A DNA stretch of 64,000 nt from Haloferax sp. Atlit-12N (GTDB taxonomy: Archaea > Halobacteriota > Halobacteria > Halobacteriales > Haloferacaceae): assembly GCF_003383095.1 (NCBI RefSeq), contig NZ_PSYW01000003.1:1-64000 (forward strand), given 5' to 3'. Under the pieces are notes generated by a model that was not told the origin of the DNA, did not search any database, and was given only the letters and a program-made list of their open reading frames with translations. The translations under genes and the position numbers were made by a program. Below are positions 12,886-29,513 of this stretch, in pieces. The first letter of the stretch is position 1; every line of letters begins with the position of its first letter.

Positions 12886-15800
12886 ATGACACACGACGAC
12901 GACACGACACGGGAATCGAATCCCGACGACGGCGACAGCAAAGGTCTGAACATCAACCGACGCAACTTCATGAAAGTGAGCGGCGTCGGGGCGGCGAACT
13001 TCCTCGGAGCCAGCGGCGTCGCACAGGCGAAACAGCTCACCACCGACGACACGATTCGCCTCGTCGCGACGGAGGGTGACGTCCTCGCGGCGTACACGAA
13101 CGAGGAGTCGGTCATCGAGGGGTCGGGTCTCGCCGACGCGATATCCGACTGGCGTCAGGGTGGCCTGACGACTGACTCCCTGTTGAAGGGAATCAACAGT
13201 TGGCGAAACGGGACGGAGATAGAGACCTCGGCGGACTCGTTCTCGTGGGTCGCGACCGCTCCCTCCGAGATGGAGGACACGACCAACCCGACGCTCGTCA
13301 TGCACGAGGGCGAGGAGTACGAAATCGAGCTCTCGAACGTCATGGACGAGGACGTCACGTTCGTCCTCGCGGACCCGACCGGCGAGGAGATGCAGTCGTT
13401 CTCCACGATGCAGGCGTCGGGCGGCTCGGAGACGATCAGCTTCACCGCCGAGTCGTCGATGGCGATGTACTACGCCGAAGAGCACCCCGAGCAGATGCGG
13501 GGGAGCGTCGAGATAACCCCGCCGCCGGCCGAAGACAACATCAGCGTCCTCATGATGGGCGGCCCGCAGGGCGGCAGCCACAACGCGCCAGCCCGGCAGG
13601 TCCAGCTCACCGAGTACATGCTGAACCGGGGTATCGAGGTCCAGTACACCGACCGTCTCGAAGACCTCGAACCCGACGTGCTCCACCGCTACGACGCGTG
13701 GATCATGATGGACAACCGCGGGGCGAACTACGGCCAAGAGCTGACCGCGGAACAGGAGGAGTCCATCGTCGAGTTCGTCGAGAACGGCGGCGGCTTCATC
13801 CCGATTCACAGCGCCTCGGCCTGTTTCACCGAGTCGGACGCCTACATGAACCTCGTCGGCGGCGAGTTCGCCGACCACAACTTCGGTGAGATGACGACGA
13901 GCTTCGCCCAGCCGAGCCACCCGATTCTGTCGAATCTCGACCCCATCACGGTGCAGGACGAGACGTATCGCCACATGAACCTCAACGACGACATCAATGT
14001 GCTCGCTCACGGGCAGTTCCCCGACGGCGACAGCATCCCCGAGTACGACGAGGGACGCGACCAGGGCGAGCCGTGGTCGTGGACTCGCACGCAGGGCGAC
14101 GGTCGCGTCTTCTACACCGCGTGGGGTCACGGCAGAGCGCCGTGGGCGACCGACGGCTTCAAAGCGCTCATCGAGAACGCGATTCGCTGGGTCACGAAGA
14201 ACGAAGACACCATCGCCGACGACACCAAGGTCCTCAACGACCTGGAGTTCATCGACGCCGACATCCCGTACTATCCGCCGCCGGAGGGGAGTCTCCTGAC
14301 GCCGGAGGTCCCAGAGGAGGTCGGCAGCGGGACGAGCTGGAACAAGATGCAGCGGGCGCTGAACCCCAGCGAGACGGTCCGTCGAACGATTACGCCGGAA
14401 GGGTTCGACCTCAAGCCGTTCGTCACCGAGACCGACCTGCCGGACGACGCGAAGGGGAACATCCTCGACGCGAAGTTCGACGAACAGGGTCGCGTCTGGC
14501 TGTCGGTCACTCGCGACTATCCCAACGAACTGGGGCAGGGCCGCGACAAAATCGTCGTCTGCGAAGACACCGACGGCGACGGACAGGCCGACGAGTTCAC
14601 CATCTTCGCAGACGGGCTCTCGGTTCCGCCGAGCATGGTGGTCGTCGACGACGGCGTCGTCGTCGCCGACCTCGACGACCCCGACGAGAGCGGGAAGCTG
14701 GTCCACCTCGTCGACACGGACGGCGACGGGCAGGCCGACGAACGAAACGTCCTGTTCTCCGGGTACGGTAACGGCGACACCCACGCCGGCCCCAACGAAC
14801 TGGTCCACGGTCTCGACAACTGGATCTGGGGACAGGTCGGCTACTCCGGGTTCAGCGGCACCATCGCCGGTGAGGAGCGGAACTTCACCTCCTCGGTCTA
14901 CCGATTCAAGTTAGAAGACGGTTCCGTCACCGACTTCGAAATCGTCGGGGCGCTCCCGGGGAACCAGGCCGGCCTCGGCTTCACCGAGGAGGGCCTCGCC
15001 TTCGGTTCGGCGGCGACCGCCGGGCGACCGAGCAACTACTTCGCCATCCCGCATCAGTACTACGACCTCATCGAGGGGACCGGGCCGAACGACTTCGGCG
15101 CGGCGTCGGACACGAACCGGTTCCTCCCCGTCACCGACCGCGTCCGGCAGGTCGACCTCCACGGCGGGTACACCGCGGCGACCGGTCACACCATCTACAC
15201 GGCGCGTGAGTATCCCGAGAAGTACTGGAACAACACCGGCTTCGTCGGCGGCGGAACGGGTCACCTACTCGGGACGTTCTTCCTCTCGCAGGACGGAGCG
15301 GGCTACAACACCCACTACGCCCACAACATCGCCGGCGGCACCGACGCGTGGTTCGCGCCGTCGTACTCCTCCGTCGGCCCGGACGGCATGCTGTGGTTCA
15401 TCGACTGGTACAACTACATCTACCAGCACAACCCGACGCCCGGCGGCTTCGAGAACGGCCCCGGAAACGCGTACATGACCGAGGTACGCGACCACGCGAC
15501 CGCCCGGCTCTTCCGCGTCGTCTACGGCGACGACGACAGCTACGAGCCGACCGACCTCACAGACGCGAGCGTCTCGGAACTCGTCGACACGCTGTCGAGT
15601 TCGAACATGTTCTGGCGGCGGACGGCCCAGCGGCTGTTGGTCGAACGGAACGAGACGGGCGCGCTTTCCTCGCTCGTCGACCTCGTCACGACGGAGACGC
15701 TCGACGAAACCGGTCTCGACCCGGCGGCGATTCACGCGCTGTGGACGATGCACGGCCTCGGCGCGCTCGACGCCGACACCGGAAACAGCACCGCGATTCA

Positions 15801-18105
15801 GGCCGCGCTCGGCGCGCTGACGCACTCCTCGGCCGGTGTCAGGCTCACCGCGCTCCGCGTTCTCCCGTCGACGACGGACACGCGGGAGGCAATTCTCGAC
15901 AACGGCCTCCTCAACGACGAGGACGGCCGAGTCGCCATGTGGGCGCTCGTCGCGCTCGCGCAGACGCCGTCCGACGACGCGTCCGGCGAGGCGGTCTACC
16001 AGATGATTAGCGACGAATCGAACTACCGGGACACGGTTCTCGTGGACGCGGCGTCGCTCGCCGGCGCGACCCACGCCGACGGCTTCATCCCGGCGTACGA
16101 GGCCAACGAGGACACGAGCGACGGCGGGAACGACGACGACGAACTGCCGAACCTCATGGAAAACCCCTCGTTCGAGACGCCCGCTGGCGGCGATACCGGC
16201 GGCGACTCCGACCCGATACCCGTCGGCTGGTCGAACACGGGGTACACCGGTTCACCCGAATTCACGTACGCCGAGACGGGCTACGAGGGCGACCGGAGCG
16301 TCCAGGTATCGTCCACCGAGGGCGCGGACGCCTCGTGGAACACGACGGTCGCGGTCGACCCGAACACCGAGTACACTCTCTCCGCGTACGTCAGGACCGA
16401 GAGCGTCCAACTCGTGGACGGAAGCGGCTTCGGCGAGGGTCCGCTCGGCGCGACCGTCAGCGTCGAGCAGATAGCGAACACGGACTCGGGAACCCAGTGG
16501 GACACGATTCCGGCCGGACTGACCGGCACCAACGACTGGACCGAGGTGAGCACCACCATCAACAGCGGCGACCTCGAAGAACTCCAGATTAACTGCCTGT
16601 TCGGCGGCTACGGCGAGGTGACCGGCACGGCGTGGTACGACAGCGTCTCGCTGACTGACCCCGACGGCAACGACGTGCTCTCGAACGGCTCGTTCGAGGA
16701 GAGCACCGGCAGCAGCGACCCCGCCATGCCCGCCGACTGGTCGACGAACACGTTCGCGGGGACGGCGCAGTACACCTACGCGGACACCGGTCAAGACGGC
16801 AGTCAGAGCGTCCAAATCACGTCTTCGGAGGGCGCGGACGCGGTCTGGCTCGCCGACGGCATCTCGGTCCAGCCCGAGACGGAGTACACCCTCAGCGGCT
16901 GGATAAAGACCGAGAACGTCCAGACGAGCGATTCGGCACGCGGCGCGCTGTTCAACGTCCACACGACGGACTTCGAGACGGACCCGCTGACCGGCACCAA
17001 CGACTGGACGGAGGTGAGCACCACGTTCACGACCGGTGCCGACACCACGACGGTCCAGATCAACTGCCTGTTCGGCGGCTACGGCACGGCAACCGGGACG
17101 GCGTGGTTCGACAACGTCTCGCTGACCGACCCCGACGGGAACAACGTCCTGCCGAACGCCTCGTTCGAGGAGGGCGCGAGCACCGACTCGTCGTCGGACC
17201 CCGAGAGCCCGGCGAACTGGGAGGGAATCACCTACGGCGGGTCGGCCGAGTTCACCTACACCTCGGACGTGGCGCGGACGGGCGATTACAGCGTCCGCGT
17301 CGACTCCACGGAGGGCGCGGACGCGTCGTGGACGCAGTACCGCGACGACCTCGAACCGAACTCCGAGTACCGCTTCCGCGCGTGGGTCAGGACCTCGGAC
17401 GACTTCAGCAACTCCGAGGACGGCTTCGGCGAAATCGGCAGTTCCTACGGCGTCACCATCAACGTCCACGGCCTCGGACAGGGTTCCGTCACGGACTACT
17501 ACACGGAGCCCGTCGAGGACTGGCAACTGCTGGAGACGACGTTCTCGACCGGCGCGTCGCCCGGCCAGTTCCAGCTCAACCTACTGTTCGGCGGCTGGGG
17601 CAACGCCACCGGCACCGTCTGGTTCGACGACACCGAACTGAAGCGCGTCGGCGGCTCCGGCAACGGGCTGGAACTCGTCTACGACCGCGTCACCGCGCAC
17701 GTCGAGGCGACCGGCGGCGGCGGCGACGACGGTGGTAGCGACGACGGCGGCAGCGACGCCATCCCCTCGGGCTCGACCATCGAACTGGAAGCCGGGAGTA
17801 ACGAGGGTTGGACCGGCGTCTCGCCGTCCGGCATCGCGGACGCGACTGACCCGACGCTGACTCTCGAAGCCGGCGGCGAGTACACGGTCACGTGGACGAA
17901 CCGCAACGGTGCGCCTCACAACTTCGAAATCGTCAACGGCGACGACTCCGTCGTGAACGACATCTCCACGTCGTACCTCGCGACGCAGGGCGAGTCACAG
18001 AGCGTCACGTTCACCGTCACCGACGCGATGGCGGAGTACGTCTGTCGCGCCCACAGCTTCCGGATGCGCGGCACCATCGAAATCGTGAGTTCGGGAGGTA
18101 ACTAA
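12886..18105 (+). CDS. Giant secreted ThuA-dehydrogenase-HEAT-CBM-blue copper protein
   Basis: The 1739-residue protein opens with a Tat signal (RRNFMKVSG, cleavage near VAQA). In order: a dockerin-like helix pair (about 79-109); a degenerate cupredoxin (about 112-210); a ThuA/glutamine-amidotransferase-like domain (about 218-438); a propeller of the membrane-bound dehydrogenase type known from Planctomycetes/Verrucomicrobia (about 520-885, with EDTDGDGQADEF repeats); HEAT-like helices (about 905-1065); three carbohydrate-binding modules (from about 1087, 1262 and 1420, each with a form of NPSFE at the start and INCLFGGYG near the end); and a C-terminal plastocyanin-like domain with intact ligands His1678, Cys1720, His1723 and Met1727. 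It is likely an extracellular sugar or polyol oxidoreductase that passes electrons to copper. The carbohydrate substrate is unknown. Confidence 0.85.
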   Translation: MTHDDDTTRESNPDDGDSKGLNINRRNFMKVSGVGAANFLGASGVAQAKQLTTDDTIRLVATEGDVLAAYTNEESVIEGSGLADAISDWRQGGLTTDSLLKGINSWRNGTEIETSADSFSWVATAPSEMEDTTNPTLVMHEGEEYEIELSNVMDEDVTFVLADPTGEEMQSFSTMQASGGSETISFTAESSMAMYYAEEHPEQMRGSVEITPPPAEDNISVLMMGGPQGGSHNAPARQVQLTEYMLNRGIEVQYTDRLEDLEPDVLHRYDAWIMMDNRGANYGQELTAEQEESIVEFVENGGGFIPIHSASACFTESDAYMNLVGGEFADHNFGEMTTSFAQPSHPILSNLDPITVQDETYRHMNLNDDINVLAHGQFPDGDSIPEYDEGRDQGEPWSWTRTQGDGRVFYTAWGHGRAPWATDGFKALIENAIRWVTKNEDTIADDTKVLNDLEFIDADIPYYPPPEGSLLTPEVPEEVGSGTSWNKMQRALNPSETVRRTITPEGFDLKPFVTETDLPDDAKGNILDAKFDEQGRVWLSVTRDYPNELGQGRDKIVVCEDTDGDGQADEFTIFADGLSVPPSMVVVDDGVVVADLDDPDESGKLVHLVDTDGDGQADERNVLFSGYGNGDTHAGPNELVHGLDNWIWGQVGYSGFSGTIAGEERNFTSSVYRFKLEDGSVTDFEIVGALPGNQAGLGFTEEGLAFGSAATAGRPSNYFAIPHQYYDLIEGTGPNDFGAASDTNRFLPVTDRVRQVDLHGGYTAATGHTIYTAREYPEKYWNNTGFVGGGTGHLLGTFFLSQDGAGYNTHYAHNIAGGTDAWFAPSYSSVGPDGMLWFIDWYNYIYQHNPTPGGFENGPGNAYMTEVRDHATARLFRVVYGDDDSYEPTDLTDASVSELVDTLSSSNMFWRRTAQRLLVERNETGALSSLVDLVTTETLDETGLDPAAIHALWTMHGLGALDADTGNSTAIQAALGALTHSSAGVRLTALRVLPSTTDTREAILDNGLLNDEDGRVAMWALVALAQTPSDDASGEAVYQMISDESNYRDTVLVDAASLAGATHADGFIPAYEANEDTSDGGNDDDELPNLMENPSFETPAGGDTGGDSDPIPVGWSNTGYTGSPEFTYAETGYEGDRSVQVSSTEGADASWNTTVAVDPNTEYTLSAYVRTESVQLVDGSGFGEGPLGATVSVEQIANTDSGTQWDTIPAGLTGTNDWTEVSTTINSGDLEELQINCLFGGYGEVTGTAWYDSVSLTDPDGNDVLSNGSFEESTGSSDPAMPADWSTNTFAGTAQYTYADTGQDGSQSVQITSSEGADAVWLADGISVQPETEYTLSGWIKTENVQTSDSARGALFNVHTTDFETDPLTGTNDWTEVSTTFTTGADTTTVQINCLFGGYGTATGTAWFDNVSLTDPDGNNVLPNASFEEGASTDSSSDPESPANWEGITYGGSAEFTYTSDVARTGDYSVRVDSTEGADASWTQYRDDLEPNSEYRFRAWVRTSDDFSNSEDGFGEIGSSYGVTINVHGLGQGSVTDYYTEPVEDWQLLETTFSTGASPGQFQLNLLFGGWGNATGTVWFDDTELKRVGGSGNGLELVYDRVTAHVEATGGGGDDGGSDDGGSDAIPSGSTIELEAGSNEGWTGVSPSGIADATDPTLTLEAGGEYTVTWTNRNGAPHNFEIVNGDDSVVNDISTSYLATQGESQSVTFTVTDAMAEYVCRAHSFRMRGTIEIVSSGGN

Positions 18106-18224: not shown

Positions 18225-19625
18225 CTACACCTGTGGGCCGGCGAACAGCGACGGGCGCTCGAACGCGAGCGACACGTCCTCTGCGATGCCGAGCAGGTCC
18301 GCAACCGTCGGCGCGAACCGCCGCGAATCAACGACGCCGCCGGACGAGCCGTCGGGTGACGCCGGCCCGCCGAAGCCGTAGAAGCCGCGCGTCTCGGGGT
18401 CGATGCGGCCGTGCGACCCCGACACCTTGGTCGGGTCGAGCGCCACGAGTCCCTCGTCGCCGAGGAACAGTTCGCACGGGTCGAAGCCGGGCTTGGCGTG
18501 GATATCCATCTCCGTCGCGTACGACGGCGCGTCGGCGTCATCGGTCCACCAGTAGTACTGGAACCACGCGTCCGCGTCCGCCACGACGACGAGGTCGCCG
18601 GCGTTCGGGTGGTTCGCACCGCCCCGCGCCTCGCCTTCGACCACGTCGTCGACGCCGGGAAGCGATTCGAGAGCCTCCCGGGCGGCCGCCGGCCGGTCGG
18701 TGTACACGTGCGCGATTTGGTGGTCGACCATCGCGAACGCCGACGACGCGGCGATGTCCACCGCCTCGCCGCCCTCGCCGTCGTCGCGCACCGAGAGCAG
18801 GCCCGCGTCGCGGAGCTCCCGGTTCGGAAACACGGGGGTATCGACCGCGTTGAAGCCGTACTCGTTGACGACGCCGACCGCCGTCTCGGACCAGCGAGGC
18901 GTCGATTTGAGCCAGTCGAGGAACTCCCCGACGAGGTCGTCGACGACGCCGACGGCCTCCCGGAGTTCCGGCGAGTCGGGGCCGTGCCGTTGCGCGTCGT
19001 AATCGAGATGCGGCACGTACACCCACAGCAGGTCCGGGTCGTACCGCGCTATCGACTCTCGTGCGGCCGCGAGAATCCACTCGCTGCTCCGCTCGTCGGC
19101 GACCGGCCCCCAGTAGTTGTGCAGCGGGAAGTGTCCGTACTCCTCGCGGAGGGCGTCGTAGAAGCCGTCGGGGTTCGTCCAGCAGTCCATCTCGATGAGG
19201 TTGTTGTCCTCGTCTTCGATGGGCGACGGCGTGACGGCCACGTCCGCGCTCGTGCCGATGAGGTGTTGGAAGAACAGCGCGCCCGTCGTGAGGCCCGCCT
19301 CGTCGCTCGCGGCCTCCCACAGCCGGGTTCGCGTTCCTCGGTCGCGCTCCCAGAACTCGGCGACCTGTCGCTCGCGGTCGAACTCGCCGCTGGACACGTC
19401 GCCGTGGGCCGCGGGTGACTGCCCGGTCGAGAGCGTCGTCTGTGCGGGCACCGTGACGCTCGGAAACGGCGGTTCGAGCGGCCCACACGGCTTTCCAGCC
19501 AGCAAGTCGGCGATGTTCGGTGCCAGTTCCTCGTCGAGATGCTCCTCTTGGAGTCCGACGATATCGAGGACGACGACGCGCCCGGCACCGGCCGCGGCCG
19601 CGTCCGAGGGTCTGCGAGCCGTCAC
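18225..19625 (-). CDS. eboF: EboF-like alkaline phosphatase/phosphodiesterase family protein
   Basis: The 466-residue enzyme belongs to the nucleotide pyrophosphatase/alkaline phosphatase family. It shows VVVLDIVGL with the metal Asp near the N-terminus, PSVTVPAQTTLSTG with the nucleophile Thr, VYVPHLDYDAQRHGPDSP, and a closing ADHQIAHVYT-like His cluster. The stretch FPLHNYWGPVADERSSEWI resembles the FPLFDFWGP region of bacterial EboF. The frame is open far upstream, but GTG at 19625 follows GGAGGGAAC and forms a 4-bp GTGA overlap with the stop of the inositol-phosphate synthase gene. It probably dephosphorylates or cleaves a phosphodiester of the cyclitol product. The bacterial Ebo pathway is linked to export of a precursor to the periplasm. 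Confidence 0.85.
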   Translation of the reverse strand: MTARRPSDAAAAGAGRVVVLDIVGLQEEHLDEELAPNIADLLAGKPCGPLEPPFPSVTVPAQTTLSTGQSPAAHGDVSSGEFDRERQVAEFWERDRGTRTRLWEAASDEAGLTTGALFFQHLIGTSADVAVTPSPIEDEDNNLIEMDCWTNPDGFYDALREEYGHFPLHNYWGPVADERSSEWILAAARESIARYDPDLLWVYVPHLDYDAQRHGPDSPELREAVGVVDDLVGEFLDWLKSTPRWSETAVGVVNEYGFNAVDTPVFPNRELRDAGLLSVRDDGEGGEAVDIAASSAFAMVDHQIAHVYTDRPAAAREALESLPGVDDVVEGEARGGANHPNAGDLVVVADADAWFQYYWWTDDADAPSYATEMDIHAKPGFDPCELFLGDEGLVALDPTKVSGSHGRIDPETRGFYGFGGPASPDGSSGGVVDSRRFAPTVADLLGIAEDVSLAFERPSLFAGPQV

Positions 19626-20818
19626 GTTCCCTCCGCGTGGCGCTCCGCGTAGTCGTAGAGGAGACGGAACTGCTCGGACAGTTCGTGACGGTCCACGCCC
19701 TCGGGCGACTTGAAGAAGGACGCGAGCTGCGGCATCGTCCCGCCCTCGCCGCGCTCGTCGGCGAAGGCGGCCAGCCGGACCATGTCGAGGACGAGCGGGG
19801 CGGCGAGCGCCGAATCGGCCCCCTCCCACGTGAACTGCATCTTCATCTTCGTCCCGAGGAAGCCCTCGAAGTGGACGTGGTCCCACGCGGTCTTCCAGTC
19901 GCCGAGCGACGGCGTGTAGTCGATGCGGACGGCGTTGTGGGTCTCGTAGCCGAGGATGTCGTCCAGCAGGCTGCCCTTGCTCTCTATCTTCCCCGCCTTG
20001 TTCGCGTCGTCTTCGAGGACCAGACCGTCGCTGTTTCCGAGGATGTTGTGGCCCTCCCACGAGAGGACGTGCAGGTTCCGTCCCGCGAACATCGGCCCGA
20101 GCGCGGACTTCATCAGCGTCTCGCCGGTCTTCCCGTCGCGGCCCATGTGCGGCACTTCGTTTCGCTCTGCGAGTTCGCGGAGGCCACCGAGCGAGGAGCC
20201 GGTGCTGGGGGTGAAGTTGATGTACGGGTGGCCGTCGAGGAGCGCCGCGTACGCGTACAGGGAACTTGCGGGAAGGTTCGGGTCGTCCCGCTCGACCGCC
20301 GCCTCGAACGCCTCCAGCGTCTCGTAGTCGCCGGGCGTCGGAATCGGCGGCTCGGTCGACGCGGCGTTCACGACGACCAGTCGGTCGACGTCCTGCGAGT
20401 CGGCGAAGGCGGCGTAGTCGGCCCGTATCTCCTCGACGATGTCGGCGACCGACACGTCGTCGCTCGCCGTCTCCGAGGACATTCCCTCGACCGCCTCGCC
20501 GCACCGGCGCGCGGTTCCGAGTTCGACGCGCTCGTCGATTTCGCGCAGGTCGTCGCGGACCGCGTCGAGGGTGTCGGGTGCCACGACGCCGCCGTGGCCC
20601 GCCATCTCCTCGGCGGTCTCCTCGATTCGCTGAGAACGGATGTCGTGACCCCCGAACACGAGGTCGCCGACGGCGGGCAGGTCGAGCGCGGCCACCGGTT
20701 CGCGGGCCGTCACCATCCCGGTCGTGTCCGCGACGCCGCGGGCGATTGCGCGCGCGCCGGTCATCGAGACGCTCGCGACGTTACCTCTGGCTCCGATTAT
20801 CCAAACTCCGACTGTCAT
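19622..20818 (-). CDS. ino1: Inositol-3-phosphate synthase (myo-inositol-1-phosphate synthase family)
   Basis: The 398-residue enzyme has the NAD-binding start WIIGARGNVAS (residues 6-16) and family motifs VVNAASTEP, YINFTPSTGSSLGG, GRDGKTGETLMKSALGPMFA and SWEGHNILGNSDG. These enzymes convert glucose 6-phosphate to inositol phosphate in the cytoplasm by an NAD-dependent oxidation, cyclisation and reduction. The next gene, coupled by a 4-bp overlap, encodes an EboF-like phosphatase. In bacterial ebo operons this position is taken by EboD, a dehydroquinate-synthase-like cyclase, so a different cyclitol source is inferred. A palindrome CAATCATGATTG at 20859-20870 lies in its promoter region. 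Confidence 0.9.
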   Translation of the reverse strand: MTVGVWIIGARGNVASVSMTGARAIARGVADTTGMVTAREPVAALDLPAVGDLVFGGHDIRSQRIEETAEEMAGHGGVVAPDTLDAVRDDLREIDERVELGTARRCGEAVEGMSSETASDDVSVADIVEEIRADYAAFADSQDVDRLVVVNAASTEPPIPTPGDYETLEAFEAAVERDDPNLPASSLYAYAALLDGHPYINFTPSTGSSLGGLRELAERNEVPHMGRDGKTGETLMKSALGPMFAGRNLHVLSWEGHNILGNSDGLVLEDDANKAGKIESKGSLLDDILGYETHNAVRIDYTPSLGDWKTAWDHVHFEGFLGTKMKMQFTWEGADSALAAPLVLDMVRLAAFADERGEGGTMPQLASFFKSPEGVDRHELSEQFRLLYDYAERHAEGT

Positions 20819-20899
20819 CGACTCACGATTGCGGTGGCCGATACATAACCTTGTCCGTCAATCATGATTGTTTCCGCGTCGGTGCCGGCGGGCGACCGC

Positions 20900-21109
20900 T
20901 CACCAGTCGAGGGAGGTGTCGTCGTCCCGCCTGTCGAGTTGGTCGCCGTGTTTGCTGAAATCGAGGTTCCGGTCGAGGACCGTCTCCTCGGGGTGTCGCC
21001 ACGTCTCGTCGCAGTCGACGCAGCGCCACTCCTCGTAGGGGCGGCCGTCCTCGGGAGTGACGCGGTTCGATTCTATCGGCTCGCCGCAGAACGGACAGTG
21101 TTCAGGCAT
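20900..21109 (-). CDS. Small double-CxxC zinc-ribbon protein
   Basis: The 69-residue protein reads MPEHCPFCGEP at its start and has Cys5, Cys8, Cys30 and Cys33 in two CxxC pairs, with WRCVDCDETW around the second. This is a zinc ribbon as in many small haloarchaeal proteins of unknown role. ATG 21109 puts the first knuckle at residue 5. An in-frame extension upstream would have a basic, shadow-like composition. It lies 81 bp upstream of the inositol-phosphate synthase gene on the same strand and diverges from the EboB gene. Confidence 0.7.
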   Translation of the reverse strand: MPEHCPFCGEPIESNRVTPEDGRPYEEWRCVDCDETWRHPEETVLDRNLDFSKHGDQLDRRDDDTSLDW

Positions 21110-21230
21110 GCGACTACGGGGTCTGCGCGGACGAGTAAATAGCTGTCTCCGCCGTCGCTCGCGGTCGCTTTGCCCGGTCGCTTCGCCCGGTCGTTGCGCC
21201 CTCGTCCCGCGGCCGTCACCGAATCCACCG

Positions 21231-21260
21231 AAACAATGATTAACTACCATCAGAGAGGTA
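21231..21260 (+). promoter_or_regulatory. Promoter and ribosome binding site of the EboB operon
   Basis: AAACAATGATTAAC at 21231-21244 resembles a haloarchaeal BRE-TATA element. GAGAGGTAGG at 21253-21262 gives a Shine-Dalgarno match a few bases before the ATG at 21267. Similar AAACAATnATT sequence occurs before the second TIM-barrel gene (24012-24022). Confidence 0.45.
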
Positions 21261-21266
21261 GGTCAC

Positions 21267-22073
21267 ATGTCGATACCAATTATCGACCCGCACATGCACA
21301 TGGTGTCTCGCTCGACGAGCGACTACGAGCGCGCCCGGCTCGCGGGCGTGGAATGCTGCGTCGAACCCGCGTTCTGGAGCGGGACGGACAAGCAGCACGC
21401 GGCGTCGTTCTTCGACTACTTCGAGCAGATAATCGAGTTCGAGACCGACCGGGCCGAACGGGCGGCGGGCATCGACCACTACGTCACCGTCGGCCTCGAA
21501 CCGAAGGAAGCGAACTACCCCGAGATGGCGGAGGCCGTGATGGACGGCCTCCCCGAGTATCTCGACCGCGAGCACGTCGTCGGACTCGGCGAAATCGGGC
21601 TCGACCAGGGGACCGAAGCCGAGGAGTACGCGTTCAGACGCCAACTCAGGATGGCCGAGGAGCGCGAACTACCGGTCATCATCCACACCCCGCACACCCA
21701 GAAGCCAGAGGGGACCGAGCGACTCGTGGAGATGATTCAGGGCGAAGACGTGACCGAGGAGCGAATCGTCATCGACCACAACACCGAGAACACGGTCGAC
21801 ATCTCGCTGCAGACCGACTGTTGGCTCGGCTTCACGCTCTATCCCGGAAAGATAGACGCCGAGACGACCATCGACATCCTCGAGGAGTACGGCACCGACA
21901 AGATGCTGCTCAACAGCGCCGCCGACTGGGACCCCTCCGACCCGCTTGCGGTCCCGAAAGCCCGAGACAAGATGCTCGACCGCGGCTGGGACCGAGACGA
22001 GGTCCGGAAGGTCGTCTACGACAACCCCCGGGAGTTCTTCGGCCAGTCGCCGAACTTCCACTACGAGGTGTGA
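21267..22073 (+). CDS. eboB: EboB-like TatD-family metal hydrolase
   Basis: The 268-residue amidohydrolase-fold protein has the metal pair DPHMH (residues 7-11), GLGEIGLDQ with the bridging Glu, VIIHTPHTQK and VIDHNTENT. The opening DPHMHMVSRSTSDYE, the VEPAFWSG stretch, VTVGLEPKEANYPEMAE and LLNSAADWDPSDPLAVPK are close to the wording of bacterial EboB rather than generic TatD nucleases. Bacterial EboB is a cytoplasmic member of the ebo pathway with unknown reaction. The gene starts the operon and is separated by three bases from the next one. Confidence 0.88.
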   Translation: MSIPIIDPHMHMVSRSTSDYERARLAGVECCVEPAFWSGTDKQHAASFFDYFEQIIEFETDRAERAAGIDHYVTVGLEPKEANYPEMAEAVMDGLPEYLDREHVVGLGEIGLDQGTEAEEYAFRRQLRMAEERELPVIIHTPHTQKPEGTERLVEMIQGEDVTEERIVIDHNTENTVDISLQTDCWLGFTLYPGKIDAETTIDILEEYGTDKMLLNSAADWDPSDPLAVPKARDKMLDRGWDRDEVRKVVYDNPREFFGQSPNFHYEV

Positions 22074-22076
22074 CCG

Positions 22077-22952
22077 ATGGAGTTCGGCTTCTCGATGAAC
22101 GCGTTCCGACAGCGAACCCTCACCGAAGGCGTCGAGGCGATAGCCGACGCCGGCTACGACGGCGTCGAAATCCTGCTCGACGACCCGCACCTGTTTCCGG
22201 GGACGGCCGACGGCGACGACTTCGAACGCGTTCGGACGCTCCTCGACGACTGCGGCATCGAAGTCAGCAACTGTAACGCGTTCATGCTCAGCGCCATCGA
22301 GCCCTCCGCGGAGAGCCGGGCGGCGACGTTCAACCGCGACACCGAGGCGTTTCACCACCCCTCGTTCGTCGAACTCGCCGCCGAGGACCGGCAGGCGCGG
22401 GTCGAGCACACGAAACACGCGCTCGCCACGGCGGCCGCGCTCGGTTCCGAGAGCATCTCGATTCCGCCGGGCGGACCCGTCCCGGAGCGCATGTCACGGG
22501 CGGACGCGCTCGACGCGTTCATCTGGGGGCTCCGCGAGGTCGCCGACGTCGCGGAGACGCTCGGCGTCGACGTGCTGGTCGAACCCGAACCCCACCTGCT
22601 CATCGAGACCTCCGAGGACTTCCTCGACCTCGTGGACCGCGTGGACTCGCCCCGCATCGGCTGTAACTTCGACGCGGGACACTTCTATTCGGTCGGCGAG
22701 GACCCGGTCGAACTGGTGGAGACGCTCGCGCCCCACACACCGCACTACCACCTCGAAGACATCCCGGGGGACAGAACGCACGAACACACCCAACTCGGCG
22801 AGGGGGCGATGGACATCGACGGCTTCCTCGAAGCGGTCGAGGCGACCGGCTACGACGGCTACGTCACGGTCGAACTGTACCCCTATCAGGAGACCGCGGC
22901 GGAGACGGCCCGAACCGCGATGGAGTACCTCGAAGCCCATGGGTGGGCCTGA
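22077..22952 (+). CDS. EboE-like xylose-isomerase-type TIM-barrel protein
   Basis: The 291-residue protein belongs to the AP-endonuclease-2/xylose-isomerase-like TIM barrels (PF01261). Likely metal ligands are the Glu in LVEPEPH, the Asp and His in NFDAGHF, the His in HLEDI and the Glu in VELYPY. Family enzymes isomerise, epimerise or dehydrate sugars and inosose (IolE, IolI). In ebo operons such a barrel is EboE. Its N-terminus (FSMNAFRQRT) and core (YDGVEILLDDPHLF) match the paralogue at 24047-24898 closely. It sits between the EboB and EboC genes, 3 bp after the first. Confidence 0.85.
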   Translation: MEFGFSMNAFRQRTLTEGVEAIADAGYDGVEILLDDPHLFPGTADGDDFERVRTLLDDCGIEVSNCNAFMLSAIEPSAESRAATFNRDTEAFHHPSFVELAAEDRQARVEHTKHALATAAALGSESISIPPGGPVPERMSRADALDAFIWGLREVADVAETLGVDVLVEPEPHLLIETSEDFLDLVDRVDSPRIGCNFDAGHFYSVGEDPVELVETLAPHTPHYHLEDIPGDRTHEHTQLGEGAMDIDGFLEAVEATGYDGYVTVELYPYQETAAETARTAMEYLEAHGWA

Positions 22953-22997
22953 CCGCCTCGCTCGGACGCGAGCACCCGACCCAGCGATCGACCGACG

Positions 22998-23951
22998 ATG
23001 AACCGAACGAACGCGACACCCTCGACCGGCGGCCTTCGACGCTCGCTCGCGAGCCTCGCCAGACTCGTCCGCGTCCCGAACCTGTTCACCACGCCGCCTG
23101 ACGTCATCCTCGGAGCGGTGTTGGTCAGCGGCGGCCGCCCGTCGGTTCCGCTCTCGTCGCTCGCCGGCGTCGCGCTCGCCTCGGTGCTGCTGTACGCGGC
23201 GGGCACGACGCTCAACGACTACACCGACGCCGACGAGGACGCACAGCACCGTCCGGAGCGCCCGATTCCGTCTGGAGACGTGTCGCGCACGCGAGCTCGG
23301 AACCTCGGCGTCGCGCTCCTCTGTGCCGGCGTCGTCGTCGCCGCAGCCGCCGGGGGACCGTCCACCGGCATCGTCGCCGCCGTCCTCGGCCTACTCGTCG
23401 CGCTCTACGACGGCGTGCTCAAGGGTACGTCCCTCGGGTTCGCGGCGATGGGTGGCTGTCGGGGGGCGAACGTCGCCCTCGGCATGGCAGTCGTCGTAGG
23501 GTCGCCCTCGGCTCCGACACCCCCGACGTGGGTGTTCCTCGTGCCGGTCGTCGTCGCGCTCTACATCGCCGGCGTCACGTACATGGCCGAGTCGGAGACC
23601 GGCGCGGGCGACTCGGGAGCGGTGCTGGTCGGAATGGCCGGCGTGGGGCTCGCCGTTGGGTCGGTGGTCGTGGTCGCCACGGCGGTCGGCATCGACCCAA
23701 GCGACCCCGCGACGCTCGCCGTGGCTGGCGGACTACTCGTCTGGTTCGCGGCGTGGACCGGCCGTGACCTCCTGACCGCCTACGCCGACCCCCGTCCGGG
23801 AACTATCGGCCCCGCGGTCGGCACGTGCGTCCTCGCGCTCGTCGTGTTGAACGCGGCGGTCGCCGGGCTGCTGAGCCCCGCATGGGGTATTGTCGCGGCG
23901 GCGTTCGTCGTCCCCGCAGTCGGCCTCTCGTCGGCGTTCGACGTGTCGTGA
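22998..23951 (+). CDS. eboC: UbiA-family prenyltransferase, EboC-like
   Basis: The 317-residue membrane protein has about nine hydrophobic helices. The first Asp-rich motif is NDYTDADED and is followed by RPERPIPSGDVSR. The second half has LYDGVLKGTS and MGGCRGANVALGMAV. The GxCRGxNxxLGM wording is characteristic of EboC among UbiA proteins. The family transfers a prenyl chain from a prenyl diphosphate to an acceptor at the membrane. Here the acceptor could be the cyclitol made by the inositol-phosphate synthase. Only 45 bp separate it from the TIM-barrel gene before it. Confidence 0.88.
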   Translation: MNRTNATPSTGGLRRSLASLARLVRVPNLFTTPPDVILGAVLVSGGRPSVPLSSLAGVALASVLLYAAGTTLNDYTDADEDAQHRPERPIPSGDVSRTRARNLGVALLCAGVVVAAAAGGPSTGIVAAVLGLLVALYDGVLKGTSLGFAAMGGCRGANVALGMAVVVGSPSAPTPPTWVFLVPVVVALYIAGVTYMAESETGAGDSGAVLVGMAGVGLAVGSVVVVATAVGIDPSDPATLAVAGGLLVWFAAWTGRDLLTAYADPRPGTIGPAVGTCVLALVVLNAAVAGLLSPAWGIVAAAFVVPAVGLSSAFDVS

Positions 23952-24032
23952 CCGGCGGGTCGTCTCAACGACTCAGTCCACGTTTTTCTGCCCCGAACGA
24001 TTGGCAGTACCAAAACAATTATTCATGTGTGA

Positions 24033-24055
24033 CTGTACCACGACATATGGTACAG
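24033..24055 (+). promoter_or_regulatory. Inverted repeat covering the start codon of the second TIM-barrel gene
   Basis: CTGTACC at 24033-24039 and GGTACAG at 24049-24055 form 7-bp arms around nine bases. The ATG at 24047 lies in the right part. It could be an operator over the transcription start or an RNA hairpin masking initiation. AAAACAATTATTCA at 24012-24025 is the likely core promoter. Confidence 0.5.
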
Positions 24056-24898
24056 TTAGCCTTCTCTACGAACGCGTACACGCGTTTCGACCTGCCGGAG
24101 GCGATCAGACGAATCGCCGACCACGGCTACGACGGGGTCGAGCTACTGGCGGACGTGCCGCACGCGTTTCTCGCCGACTTCGACGAGACCGACCGCGAGC
24201 GCGTCCTGACGGCGCTGGACGAGACTGGACTCTCGGTGTCGAATATCAACGCGAACACGACTTGCGGCTACTACGACGACGCGCCGCCGTCGGCGTTCTT
24301 CGACCCGACGCTCATCTCGGCCGACAAGGAAGACCGCCGGTGGCGTATCCAGTACACGAAGGCCGCCATCGACTTCGCCGCGCTGGTCGACGCGCCCGCG
24401 GCGTGCGTCGCCAGCGGGTCGTCGCTTCCCGGAACGCCGCCGAGTGAGGCTTACGAGTACCTACTCGAATCGCTCGACGAACTCACGGCGTACGCCGAGG
24501 ACGCCGGGGTCGACCTCGGCATCGAGTTCGAACCGGAGCTCCTCGTCGAGTGTACCGAAGAGGTGTTGACGCTCATCGACGACGTGGGGAGCGACGCGCT
24601 CGGCGTCAACTTCGACGTCGGCCACGCGGCCGTCTACGGCGAGGACCCGGCCGAGAGCATTCGCCAGTGCGCCGGCCGCATCACGGGCATCCATCTCGAA
24701 GACATCAAGGGCGGCCGTGGGGGGAAACACTATCACCTCATCCCCGGCGAGGGTGACCTCGACTTCGGACCCGTCTTCGGCGCGCTCGACGACATCGGGT
24801 ACGACGGCTTCGCGACGTTCGAACTCTACACCTATCCCGACGACCCCGACGACGCGGCCCGGCGCGCGCGAGACGAACTGGCCGAATACGCCCGCTGA
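24047..24898 (+). CDS. Second xylose-isomerase-type TIM-barrel protein of the Ebo-like cluster
   Basis: The 283-residue protein is a clear paralogue of the barrel at 22077-22952: LAFSTNAYTRF, YDGVELLADVPHAF, VSNINAN, NFDVGHA and HLEDIKGG line up with it. Expected metal ligands are the Glu in IEFEPE, Asp/His in FDVGHA, His in HLEDI and Glu in FELYTY. The open frame extends further upstream, but ATG 24047 gives the family N-terminus. It lies 95 bp after the EboC gene with its own promoter-like element, so it may be expressed separately. A sugar or cyclitol isomerase or epimerase is the best guess. Confidence 0.82.
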   Translation: MVQLAFSTNAYTRFDLPEAIRRIADHGYDGVELLADVPHAFLADFDETDRERVLTALDETGLSVSNINANTTCGYYDDAPPSAFFDPTLISADKEDRRWRIQYTKAAIDFAALVDAPAACVASGSSLPGTPPSEAYEYLLESLDELTAYAEDAGVDLGIEFEPELLVECTEEVLTLIDDVGSDALGVNFDVGHAAVYGEDPAESIRQCAGRITGIHLEDIKGGRGGKHYHLIPGEGDLDFGPVFGALDDIGYDGFATFELYTYPDDPDDAARRARDELAEYAR

Positions 24899-25266: not shown

Positions 25267-27642
25267 ATGAGTCCGGACAGTCCACGTTCGGAGCGGTCGG
25301 CGGACCTCCGGAACGCCCTTCCGGTCGTCGCGATGGCGGCCCTCTTGGTGGTCGGTTCGCTCGGACTGGGTGCGGCTATCGCGCCGGTCGCCGCGGACGC
25401 CCACGGTGGAACGCTCACGCGAACGGTCGATGACACCACGCTCGCGCCCGGTGAGTCCACCACCGTCACGGTCGAGGTGAACGCCTCCGAACGGGGGAAC
25501 TTCACCGTGGTCGAAGAGCTGAGTCCGGGCTTCGAGTCGGTCGAAATCGTCGACGCCGACGGCGCGGATTTCTCTGGCGTGCGGAACGCAGACGACGAAC
25601 TGTTCGCGACCTACGGCGACCGCGAGAGCGTCACGCTCGTCTACGAGGTGACCGCGGCCGACGACGCGAACGCGACGACCCACGAACTCACCGGATACGG
25701 CGACTTCGGCCTCGAAGACGTCCGGGCCTCGACGACCGGTGACGGTGAAATCAGCGTCTCGACCGACGACGGGGCGAGCGTGGTCCGCTCGGTCGACGAC
25801 GCGACCCTCGCGCCCGGCGAATCGGCGACCGTCTGGGTGGCTGTCGAACGGGACGAGGCGGCGAACTTCACGCTCGTCGAGGAGTTCAGCCCCGCGTTCG
25901 GCTCGGTCGAAATCGTCGATGCCGACGGCGCGGACTTCTCGGACGTGCGGAACGCCAACGACGAACTGTTCGCCACCTACGGCGACCGCGAGTTGGCCAC
26001 ACTCGTCTACGAGGTAACCGCGGCCGACGACGCGGCGGCCGGCACGGTCTACGAACTCGACGGGTTCGCGGACGTGAACGGCTCGCAGTCGGCGACCGAT
26101 GGGACCGCCGAAATCAGCGTGCAGGAGTCGAGCGACGACGGCGGCGCGGCCGTCCGGTCCGTCGACGATGCGACCCTCGCGCCGGGTGAATCGACCACGG
26201 TCCGGGTCGCCTTCGACCGGGACGAGGCGACGAACTTCACGCTCGTCGAGGAGTTCAGCCCCGCATTCGGCTCGGTGGAGATAGTCGACGACGACGGTGC
26301 GGACTTCTCGGCCGTACGCGACGCCAACGACGAACTGTTCGCGACCTACGGCGACCGCGAGTTGGCCACGCTCGTCTACGAGGTGACCGCCGACAACGAC
26401 GCGACGACCAGCACGGTCTACGAGTTCGGCGGCTTCGCGGACGTGAACGGCTCGCAGTCGGCGACCAATGGAACCGCCGAAATCAGCGTCCAGGCGTCGG
26501 ACGACGGTGACTCCGGTGCGGTTCGGTCGGTCGACGACGAGACCCTCGCGCCGGGCGAATCCACCACCGTCACGGTCGAGGTCGACCGGGACGAGGCGGC
26601 GAACTTCACGCTCATCGAGGAGTTCAACCCCGCCTTTGGTTCGGTCGAAATCGTCGACGACGACGGCGCTGATTTCTCCGGTGTGCGGAACGCCAACGAC
26701 GAACTGTTCGCCACCTACGGCGACCGCGAGAGCGTCACGCTCGTCTACGAGGTGACCGCGGGCGACGACGCGGCCGGCACGGCCTACCAGTTCGACGGCT
26801 TCACCGACGTGAACGGCTCGGAGGTGACGACCGGCGGCACCGACGAACTCGACGTTCAGAGCGAGTCCGACGACGACAACTGGGACCTCACCCGGTCGGC
26901 CGACGACACGACGCTCGAACCCGGTGAATCGACCGTCGTCTCGGTCGAAATCACCGGCAGCGAGGCGACGAACTTCACCGTCATCGAGGAGTTCAACCCC
27001 GGATTCGCATCGGTCGAAATCGTCGATGACGACGGCGCGGACTTCTCGGGCGTGCGGAACGCCAACGACGAACTGTTCGCGACCTACGGTGACCGCGAGA
27101 ACGTCACCCTCCAGTACCGTGTGACCGCCGGTGAGGACATGGACGAGGACGCCTCGTACGAACTCAGCGGGTTCGCGCAGTTCGACGCCGGCGACAAGGA
27201 GATGGACGTCGACGGCCTCGAATCGCTCTCTGTCGGCACTGACGGAGACAGCGGTGACGACGACGGCGACGACGGCGATGATAACGACGGTGACGATGGC
27301 GACGATGGCGACGACGGCGACGACGGCGATGATAACGACGGTGACGATGGCGACGATGGCGACGACGGCGACGACGGCGATGATAACGACGGTGATGACG
27401 GTGATGACGGCGATGACGACGATAACAACGGAGATGACGACGGTGATGACTCAGACGATGGTTCCGACGGCTCGGACGGTGACGACGGCTCGGACGACGG
27501 AACGACCGAGACGACGACGGCCGACCCCAACACGCCCGCGACGACCACGACTGACACGCCCGTTCCCGGGTTCGGTGTCTCGGTTGCGCTCGCCGCGCTC
27601 GTGATGGGCTCGGTCCTTCTCGCGCGCCGGCGAACGAGCTAA
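25267..27642 (+). CDS. PGF-CTERM surface protein with five tandem beta-domains
   Basis: The 791-residue secreted protein has an N-terminal hydrophobic signal (VVAMAALLVVGSLGLGAA, about residues 19-36), then five near-identical domains of about 122 residues starting near 45, 172, 294, 417 and 538. Each begins with a form of VDDATLAPGES and contains VEEFSPAFGSVEIVD, NANDELFATYGDRE and LVYEVTA. A long Asp/Gly linker (about 659-745) leads to TPVPGFGVSVALAA and a terminal Arg cluster, the PGF-CTERM signal processed by archaeosortase A, which lipid-anchors surface proteins. The domains resemble haloarchaeal adhesin- or cohesin-like beta sandwiches, and binding partners are unknown. The nearby laccase is also exported. 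Confidence 0.85.
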   Translation: MSPDSPRSERSADLRNALPVVAMAALLVVGSLGLGAAIAPVAADAHGGTLTRTVDDTTLAPGESTTVTVEVNASERGNFTVVEELSPGFESVEIVDADGADFSGVRNADDELFATYGDRESVTLVYEVTAADDANATTHELTGYGDFGLEDVRASTTGDGEISVSTDDGASVVRSVDDATLAPGESATVWVAVERDEAANFTLVEEFSPAFGSVEIVDADGADFSDVRNANDELFATYGDRELATLVYEVTAADDAAAGTVYELDGFADVNGSQSATDGTAEISVQESSDDGGAAVRSVDDATLAPGESTTVRVAFDRDEATNFTLVEEFSPAFGSVEIVDDDGADFSAVRDANDELFATYGDRELATLVYEVTADNDATTSTVYEFGGFADVNGSQSATNGTAEISVQASDDGDSGAVRSVDDETLAPGESTTVTVEVDRDEAANFTLIEEFNPAFGSVEIVDDDGADFSGVRNANDELFATYGDRESVTLVYEVTAGDDAAGTAYQFDGFTDVNGSEVTTGGTDELDVQSESDDDNWDLTRSADDTTLEPGESTVVSVEITGSEATNFTVIEEFNPGFASVEIVDDDGADFSGVRNANDELFATYGDRENVTLQYRVTAGEDMDEDASYELSGFAQFDAGDKEMDVDGLESLSVGTDGDSGDDDGDDGDDNDGDDGDDGDDGDDGDDNDGDDGDDGDDGDDGDDNDGDDGDDGDDDDNNGDDDGDDSDDGSDGSDGDDGSDDGTTETTTADPNTPATTTTDTPVPGFGVSVALAALVMGSVLLARRRTS
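27277..27390 (+). repeat. 51-bp tandem repeat inside the Asp/Gly linker
   Basis: GATGATAACGAC recurs at 27277, 27328 and 27379, exactly 51 bp apart, with almost identical sequence between. The unit encodes 17 residues of Asn/Asp/Gly spacer. Because 51 is a multiple of three, copy-number change would keep the frame and vary the stalk length of the surface protein. Confidence 0.8.
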
Positions 27643-27767: not shown

Positions 27768-29513
27768 ATGACAGACTGGTCTAGGCGGCGGTTTCTACAG
27801 ACAGGCGCAGCCCTCGGCATCGCCGGAACGCTCCCGCAGACGACGACGAACGTCTCCGCGGCGTCACCGGCGTTGGATAAGTTCGTGCAACCGCTTCCGG
27901 TTCCGTCGGTCCGGGAACCGGACGGGCAGCGAGACGGCGCGGACGCCTACGAGATATCGGTCACCGAATTCACTCAACAACTCCACCCGGACCTCCCGGA
28001 GACGACGGTCTGGGGGTTCGACGGGTCGTATCCCGGCCCAACCATCGAAGCGGACGCCGGGAGTCCAGTCCACGTTCGGTTCGACAACAGCGAACTCCCG
28101 AGCGACCACCTGTTCAACGTCGACGAGCGAATCGGTGGCACGACCACGGAGAACCACGCCGGCTACGACGGCCCAGTCCCGGAGGTTCGGACCGTCACCC
28201 ACTTCCACGGCCTGGAAGTCGACCCCGCGAACGACGGGCAGTCCGACATGTGGACCTCGCCGAGCGGGGTCGAGGGGCCGCGGTTCGACTCGGAGTGGCA
28301 GGAACTCCCGATGGAACAGGGGCGCACCACCTCGACGTACCACGACCACACGCTGGGTATCACCCGGCTCAACGCCTACGCCGGGCTCCTCGGACTCTAC
28401 TCGATTACGACCGACGCCGAGCGCGAACTCGGCCTGCCGTCGGGCGACTACGACATCCCGCTGTTGCTGCAGGACAAGGAGTTCAACGACGACGGCTCGC
28501 TGCACTACCCAGACGAGTTCGCCTCGGCGTTCCTCGGCGACACGGCCGTCGTCAACGGTGCCGTGTGGCCGTACGTCGAGGTCGAACCGCGTCGGTACCG
28601 CTTCCGCATCCTGAACGGTGCGAACCACCGCTCGTTCGACCTCCAGTTCGAGAACGAAAGCGGGTCGGGCGTCCCGACGATGTACCAGTTCGCGCCCGGC
28701 CACGGCTTCCTCGAATCGGTCGTTCCCATCGGCCCGAACGGCGACCTCGACTCGCTGTTGCTCACGCCCTTCGAGCGCGGCGAACTCATCGTCGACTTCT
28801 CCGACCACGCAGGCGAGACGCTCACGCTCACCAACGGGGCCGACATGGGTCCCGATCTGACCGACCTCGTCCAGTTCCGCGTCTCGGACCCTGAGACGCC
28901 GCCCGAAGACGCGAGCGCCGACCCGACGGACCTGTCGCTTCCCGCGCCGACCTCGTACGACGAGAGCGACGCACGGGTGACTCGCGAGATGACGCTGGGA
29001 ACCAAGGTCGACGTTGAAAACAACCTCATCATGCACACCCTGAACGGGTACGTCTTCGGCGACGAGGACGCACCCGTCTACCCGCAACTCGGGTCGACCG
29101 AGATATGGGAACTGCAGAACGAGTCGGGGGGACGACACCCGATTCACCTGCATCTGGTCACCTTCAGGGTCATCGGCCGCGGCCCCGACGGGACGCAGCC
29201 ACCGGACCCCAACGAGTTGGGACCGAAAGACACCGTCCGCGTCGACCCCGACGAGCGCGTGCGGATAATCGCCACGTTCGAGGGGTACACCGGGCAGTTC
29301 CCGTGGCACTGCCACATGCTCGAACACGAGGACAACAAGATGATGATTCCGTTCGTCGTCGAGAACCCCATCGCGGACTACGCGAACGACAGCGACATCG
29401 TGGACGCGACGGGGCTGACCGACGCGGTGAGCGACTGGCGGAACGACGACCTCGAAACCGAGGTGCTCCTCGAAGTCATCGACCAGTGGCGGAGCGGCGA
29501 CGAAGTCGCCTGA
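27768..29513 (+). CDS. lccA: Multicopper oxidase (laccase, LccA-like)
   Basis: The 581-residue exported enzyme begins with a Tat signal (WSRRRFLQTGAAL, cleavage near VSAA). All four copper motifs are present: THFHGLE, TYHDHTLG, HPIHLHL and the type-1/trinuclear HCHMLEHEDNKMM. It should oxidise phenols, amines, bilirubin or metal ions with reduction of oxygen to water, as the secreted Haloferax volcanii laccase does. After the last cupredoxin the chain ends in a dockerin-like helix pair (about residues 546-578; LTDAVSDWRN and IDQWRSG) also found near the N-terminus of the giant protein at 12886. It follows the surface-protein gene by 125 bp. Confidence 0.92.
   Translation: MTDWSRRRFLQTGAALGIAGTLPQTTTNVSAASPALDKFVQPLPVPSVREPDGQRDGADAYEISVTEFTQQLHPDLPETTVWGFDGSYPGPTIEADAGSPVHVRFDNSELPSDHLFNVDERIGGTTTENHAGYDGPVPEVRTVTHFHGLEVDPANDGQSDMWTSPSGVEGPRFDSEWQELPMEQGRTTSTYHDHTLGITRLNAYAGLLGLYSITTDAERELGLPSGDYDIPLLLQDKEFNDDGSLHYPDEFASAFLGDTAVVNGAVWPYVEVEPRRYRFRILNGANHRSFDLQFENESGSGVPTMYQFAPGHGFLESVVPIGPNGDLDSLLLTPFERGELIVDFSDHAGETLTLTNGADMGPDLTDLVQFRVSDPETPPEDASADPTDLSLPAPTSYDESDARVTREMTLGTKVDVENNLIMHTLNGYVFGDEDAPVYPQLGSTEIWELQNESGGRHPIHLHLVTFRVIGRGPDGTQPPDPNELGPKDTVRVDPDERVRIIATFEGYTGQFPWHCHMLEHEDNKMMIPFVVENPIADYANDSDIVDATGLTDAVSDWRNDDLETEVLLEVIDQWRSGDEVA

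Follow-up and report, generated by a model that had tools for sequence, protein, structure and literature searches.

A myo-inositol-1-phosphate synthase within an ebo-like gene cluster of Haloferax sp. Atlit-12N and other haloarchaea

Results

The stretch analyzed here (64,000 nucleotides of Haloferax sp. Atlit-12N, contig NZ_PSYW01000003.1, positions 1 to 64,000; hereafter “the window”) carries an ebo-like gene cluster at positions 18225–24898. Clusters of this name, coined in 2016, are widespread among bacterial phyla and are also present in the plastids of some algae. The cluster in the window consists of six long genes, all intact, arranged in two divergent units. The minus-strand unit reads MIPS (myo-inositol-1-phosphate synthase) and then eboF, and the plus-strand unit reads EboB–TIM1–EboC–TIM2. 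An earlier note, made from the sequence alone, had described an EboF-like phosphatase, an EboB-like hydrolase, an EboC-like UbiA prenyltransferase and EboE-like TIM barrels in divergent units, and Pfam assigns the corresponding proteins to PF01663 (type-I phosphodiesterase), PF01026 (TatD-like hydrolase), PF01040 (UbiA) and twice to PF01261. All of the genes named in that note are present, and one was overlooked, namely the second minus-strand gene, MIPS (19622–20818; PF07994/PF01658), which is the predicted cyclase of the cluster in the place of EboD. The start codon of eboF is a GTG at 19625 that overlaps the MIPS stop codon by 4 nucleotides (GTGA), such that stop and start share letters.

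Judged by sequence comparison, EboB, EboC and EboF fall within the bacterial Ebo families, either as true members or as sisters inside them. EboB (21267–22073, plus strand), a TatD/amidohydrolase-fold hydrolase of 268 amino acids (PF01026), shares 41–47% identity with the EboB proteins of classical ebo clusters, and a 12-sequence alignment with classical EboB contains 50 invariant columns. Two stretches on which the earlier identification had relied, NPKEAN and NSAADW.xSDPLAVPK, are kept in bacterial EboB. The sole other PF01026 protein of the genome (L187) gave no match to bacterial EboB in a tblastn search. EboF (18225–19625, minus strand) is a hydrolase of 466 amino acids with a phosphodiesterase/nucleotide-pyrophosphatase fold (PF01663, 171.7 bits in Pfam) and is 34–41% identical to bacterial EboF. 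Its cited FPL...WGP...WI residues are invariant in the family. At the metal site, where nucleotide pyrophosphatase has Asp-His (SDHG in 2gsn), EboF has Glu-Tyr (E255-Y256, within an (S/N)EYG signature), and this pair is invariant in 37/37 haloarchaeal and 29/29 bacterial EboF sequences. The Glu-Tyr change is thus an active-site mark common to both groups.

EboC (22998–23951, plus strand; 317 amino acids) is a membrane prenyltransferase of the UbiA superfamily (PF01040). When ranked against NCBIfam models, it scored 168 bits to EboC (NF035940), 153 bits to SCO3242 and 71 bits to a generic prenyltransferase. Note that the curated cut-offs are 250 bits for NF035940 and 260 bits for SCO3242 (and 250 bits for the EboE model NF035939, used below), that the window protein scores under those of both the EboC and SCO3242 models, and that automatic annotation leaves it unnamed because the EboC threshold of 250 is not reached. 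The same two models match all 16 of the haloarchaeal copies tested and top the family ranking. In the EboC tree the haloarchaeal copies form one clade within bacterial EboC. Residues N73, D74, D77, D81, R155 and E200, which include an NDxxDxxxD motif, are invariant or nearly so across haloarchaeal and bacterial EboC; R155 belongs to the CRGAN wording cited earlier and is invariant. A UbiA paralogue of the same genome (L002) has Thr and Ile where EboC has R155 and E200. The solved fold nearest to the EboC model is that of archaeal DGGGP synthase, another UbiA-family enzyme, with which the first Asp-rich motif is shared; other archaeal UbiA homologues follow, and a membrane phosphoribosyltransferase was also matched.

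Both TIM barrels, TIM1 (22077–22952, plus strand) and TIM2 (24047–24898, plus strand; 283 amino acids), are xylose-isomerase-like proteins of PF01261; a further PF01261 gene lies in the window at 57955. Their reading as EboE in the earlier note did not hold. TIM1 and TIM2 are the proteins that the EboE model picks out in these haloarchaeal genomes, but the best haloarchaeal scores are 16–31 bits versus the cut-off of 250, and in a tree of TIM barrels EboE forms a clade apart from TIM1 and TIM2 (the TIM2 clade being represented there by other haloarchaea rather than by the window protein). Profile comparison to EboE gave matches of partial length, with E = 8.5e-10 for TIM1 and E = 7.4e-9 for TIM2. 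These comparisons support the classification of both as distant relatives of EboE only. TIM2 is matched over its full length (E = 6.9e-38, 33–34% identity) by the actinobacterial TIM barrel encoded beside SCO3242 in Streptomyces. The structural model of TIM1 (pLDDT 92) has a ketose-epimerase/IolI-like fold, with the D-tagatose 3-epimerase-like MJ1311, UlaE and IolI as nearest folds.

The remaining Ebo families were looked for in the 37 EboB-bearing haloarchaeal genomes of the survey described below. No EboE sensu stricto was found in them, NF035939 giving 31 bits or less. The genome-wide search for an EboA homologue that the earlier note had proposed was run with NF035938 and was positive in 0/37 of these genomes, while 3/3 positive controls matched; EboG was not searched genome-wide. 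Members of PF01761, the DHQ-synthase family that holds EboD, are absent from the window's genome, and the other 36 gave no strong match. The gap between the two units holds no conserved open reading frame that might replace EboA, apart from a zinc-ribbon protein of 69 amino acids (20900–21109, minus strand). This gene is divergent from eboB and keeps the same position in only one subclade of the haloarchaeal ebo loci; it is a clade-specific accessory whose membership in the cluster is uncertain. Overall, the earlier interpretation is partly supported, being correct in kind and incomplete in detail, with three Ebo families present and three absent.

The window MIPS scores 299 bits to the MIPS of Archaeoglobus fulgidus (1u1i) and keeps residues D225, N255, D261, K274, K278, K306, D332 and K367 of that enzyme, which we take to be catalytic from their roles there. 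It is 47% identical to the MIPS of a Streptomyces ebo cluster. In a survey of 292 Halobacteria genomes, EboB was found in 37 and MIPS in 38, and all 37 EboB genomes lie within the MIPS set (Fisher p = 3e-46, uncorrected for kinship). The pair is patchy within single genera and yet is gained or lost jointly; in the window's own genus, both genes are present in 4 of 14 genomes and neither in the other 10. As the earlier note's reading required, the genes co-occur across haloarchaea: all six lie within 20 kb in 30 of the 37 EboB-bearing genomes. Such clustering is well beyond chance, and an assembly of housekeeping genes by accident was rejected. Arrangements vary among the genomes. In two (G249 and G255), MIPS-EboF and EboB-TIM1-EboC-TIM2 occupy separate sites with both halves retained; in a third (G020), MIPS is located away from EboB-TIM1-EboC; on a plasmid of Natronococcus sp. 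CG52 (G263), all six genes are on one strand; and a plasmid of Haladaptatus pallidirubidus carries EboB-TIM1-EboC-TIM2 and EboF with no MIPS within that stretch. MIPS is therefore part of a conserved, co-inherited module composed of EboB-TIM1-EboC-TIM2 and MIPS-EboF.

Some copies appear to be decaying (set L056/L043/L201). MIPS is broken in one of the two ebo loci of G271, EboF of G264 is cut to about 80 N-terminal residues, and TIM2 is broken in one copy of G209.

In the MIPS tree, the haloarchaeal proteins are sister to the Streptomyces ebo-MIPS (support 93/94), and the MIPS of Archaeoglobus, which has no ebo neighbors, is separate. A grouping of all ebo-MIPS proteins as one clade, obtained from a tree without Archaeoglobus, was discarded, as the Gemmatirosa sequence moved away once Archaeoglobus was included and only the haloarchaea-Streptomyces link was kept. 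Two other MIPS-fold proteins without ebo context serve for comparison. The Archaeoglobus enzyme has the same catalytic residues as the window MIPS, and the five-membered cyclitol synthase Ari2 (6k96) is far more distant (42 bits).

In other archaea, MIPS supplies archaetidylinositol or di-inositol phosphate (PMC9385802), and the gene in the window might likewise feed an ordinary inositol phospholipid or osmolyte, with its ebo-like neighbors there by accident. MIPS genes without ebo genes do exist in haloarchaea: one is carried beside a GT4 glycosyltransferase on a plasmid of Halomarina sp. BND7 (L091:9980-12445), and another, in G208 (L073), completes a pair of related genes found beside glycosyltransferases or alone. 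Both are nested inside the haloarchaeal ebo-MIPS clade and so were apparently reused. Such a supply role is nevertheless very improbable for the cluster and was rejected, since EboB is present in 37 of the 38 MIPS-bearing haloarchaea and the pair is co-inherited. The separate position of the Archaeoglobus MIPS and the 4-nucleotide overlap, which suggests translational coupling of MIPS and EboF, also argue against it.

The closest bacterial version is the actinobacterial SCO3242-type ebo cluster, as found for example on a plasmid of Streptomyces sp. NBC_00376 (L077). It has in common with the haloarchaeal cluster MIPS (47% identity), a UbiA/SCO3242 prenyltransferase, a TIM barrel matching TIM2, EboB (47%), EboF (38%) and the lack of EboD. 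It differs in having EboA, a true EboE and a single operon, whereas a second TIM barrel (TIM1) is found in the haloarchaeal cluster alone. Two Streptomyces plasmid loci of this type contain MIPS, the SCO3242 prenyltransferase, the TIM barrel, EboA, EboB, EboE and EboF, without EboD. A Gemmatirosa locus contains EboE, EboG, EboB, EboF, EboC, MIPS and a TIM barrel. The classical eboA-F operon of Bacteroidetes, Cyanobacteria and eustigmatophyte plastids (PMC5133447) shares homologous, clustered EboB, EboC and EboF; relative to it, the haloarchaeal cluster has MIPS for EboD, no EboA, and distantly related TIM barrels for EboE.

Classical clusters of Azospirillum, Aureibacter, Deinococcus, Roseivivax, Ketogulonicigenium and Mycetohabitans have the DHQ-synthase-like EboD without MIPS. 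A scan of contigs with EboB, dominated by Planctomycetota, returned 80 loci, of which 26 had EboD and 0 had MIPS; no further MIPS-type cluster was found among them. EboD and MIPS did not occur together in any of the loci examined. Most simply, the two can be read as alternative cyclases of one kind of pathway.

Four planctomycete loci (L108, L113, L138 and L170) constitute a third form of the cluster. Their EboC proteins group near haloarchaeal EboC, and EboB is on the strand opposite the EboC unit. In L113, L138 and L170 the TIM barrel linked to EboC is about 40% identical to TIM1, and identities to TIM2 are about 41–42% (L113 and L170) and 38% (L138). EboF was found in L108, L113 and L138, and L113 also has an SCO3242-type TIM barrel. 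EboA, EboE, MIPS and EboD are absent from all four loci.

A different cluster was observed on plasmids of Hymenobacter and Roseomonas (set L088:7929-16630, L089:7974-17149, L090:8001-14803), where MIPS accompanies a TIM barrel like that of actinobacterial ebo clusters, a Gfo/Idh/MocA protein, a YcaO-like protein and a PIG-L deacetylase. Methylobacterium, in the same set, has a MIPS and TIM pair. The Hymenobacter/Roseomonas cluster is a putative inositol-based pathway, possibly related to thiols or natural products.

Beyond the six genes, neighbors vary. Near 18 of the 37 haloarchaeal loci lies a glucose/sorbosone dehydrogenase (GSDH) family protein that is Tat-secreted and has a cupredoxin domain. 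In the window, the cluster is flanked on one side by a 1739-amino-acid Tat-secreted protein (12886–18105) with ThuA, TIGR02604, carbohydrate-binding and plastocyanin domains, and on the other by a multicopper oxidase (27768–29513). A secreted protein of 791 amino acids (25267–27642) has about 5 repeats of a domain of about 110 residues and a long Asp/Gly-rich tail. ThuA, GSDH, FAA hydrolase and Gfo/Idh/MocA proteins, all typical of sugar use, are among the flanking genes, and one could therefore picture TIM barrels, a TatD-like hydrolase and a phosphodiesterase that together degrade a sugar. We rejected this reading and give it almost no credence, because MIPS, a biosynthetic enzyme, and a membrane prenyltransferase belong to the core, and the catabolic neighbors are not conserved.

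Discussion

The cluster probably encodes an archaeal form of the ebo pathway that is based on inositol, with a prenylated cyclitol as its product. Its MIPS sets it apart from the A–F operon and makes it a variant of the inositol type. An isoprenoid-cyclitol was proposed as the product of the classical operon on the grounds of EboD (Yurchenko et al., PMC5133447), and the earlier note's suggestion of a prenylated polar molecule is plausible. No archaeal or MIPS-type ebo cluster was found in the open-licence literature. Inositol is not mentioned in PMC6282210 (Klicki et al.) or PMC9235831 (Moghaddam et al.), and the passages of these papers that were consulted describe no ebo cluster from archaea.

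The reaction established for the MIPS family converts glucose 6-phosphate to inositol phosphate. In the pathway that we propose, MIPS would first cyclize glucose 6-phosphate, giving inositol 1(3)-phosphate; in the counterpart reaction, the presumed substrate of EboD is sedoheptulose 7-phosphate. TIM1 and TIM2, as metal-dependent barrels of the epimerase/isomerase type, would then modify the ring, either in its stereochemistry or in its pattern of oxidation; the TIM1 model shares its fold with ketose 3-epimerases and IolI, which makes ring epimerization or isomerization likely. Membrane-embedded EboC would move a prenyl group onto a ring hydroxyl, and in haloarchaea this group is most likely geranylgeranyl. 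Since the fold closest to the EboC model is that of DGGGP synthase, an enzyme that attaches a prenyl chain to a hydroxyl of glycerol phosphate, such a transfer appears likely. Finally, EboF would remove or rearrange the phosphate ester and EboB would hydrolyze another bond. The outcome would be a prenylated cyclitol bound to the membrane, and it might act as a specialized lipid, a cofactor or a carrier.

The acceptor of EboC could instead be aromatic. In that case the TIM barrels would oxidize and dehydrate the MIPS ring, in the manner of IolE or AsbF, to a polyhydroxybenzene, and prenylation by EboC would yield a quinol-like redox lipid. TIM1 does match AsbF and IolE-type folds as well, the acceptors of UbiA enzymes are mostly aromatic, and many loci are flanked by the secreted sugar-dehydrogenase/cupredoxin proteins. 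EboC homologues, including that of Maribacter, farnesylate quinolines in vitro, according to Moghaddam et al. (PMC9235831). We nonetheless consider an aromatic acceptor unlikely, as the conserved core is without a dehydrogenase, which a cyclitol product does not call for, and the folds nearest to TIM1 are those of epimerases.

A system for export, as proposed for Nostoc, is a further alternative, in which a small molecule is moved across the membrane and MIPS supplies part of the carrier. All ebo deletions of N. punctiforme hold the scytonemin monomer in the cytoplasm, as reported by Klicki et al. (PMC6282210), and secreted oxidative enzymes adjoin haloarchaeal clusters, the multicopper oxidase of the window among them. 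These flanks recall the periplasmic oxidation that follows the ebo step in scytonemin synthesis, although the resemblance is one of pattern only and lies outside the conserved core. Because that core has no transporter and the flanking enzymes are variable, we regard export as improbable; an export or carrier function and a prenylated cyclitol are compatible.

Several points weigh against an inositol-based ebo pathway. With EboA and EboE sensu stricto missing, three of the six defining ebo genes are absent. In planctomycetes, clusters whose EboC, TIM and EboF proteins are related to those discussed here lack both EboD and MIPS at the locus, and a dedicated cyclase is thus not universal. The one characterized EboC homologue farnesylates aromatic quinolines in vitro and not cyclitols (PMC9235831). 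The order of the steps given above is guesswork.

That the predicted cyclase here is MIPS, an enzyme of known reaction, suggests that an ebo product is built from an inositol ring, and the exchange of EboD for MIPS independently supports the cyclitol part of the isoprenoid-cyclitol proposal (PMC5133447). More tentatively, and at somewhat less than even odds in our estimation, the haloarchaeal and actinobacterial clusters may represent a second, inositol-based form of ebo that makes a new class of lipid, in which a prenyl group is bonded directly to an inositol-derived ring without glycerol phosphate; the exchange would then show that the head group of ebo products is a cyclitol. Because most of the haloarchaea searched are without MIPS, an inositol compound linked to the cluster would cleanly identify the product, and would do so in a genetically tractable group.

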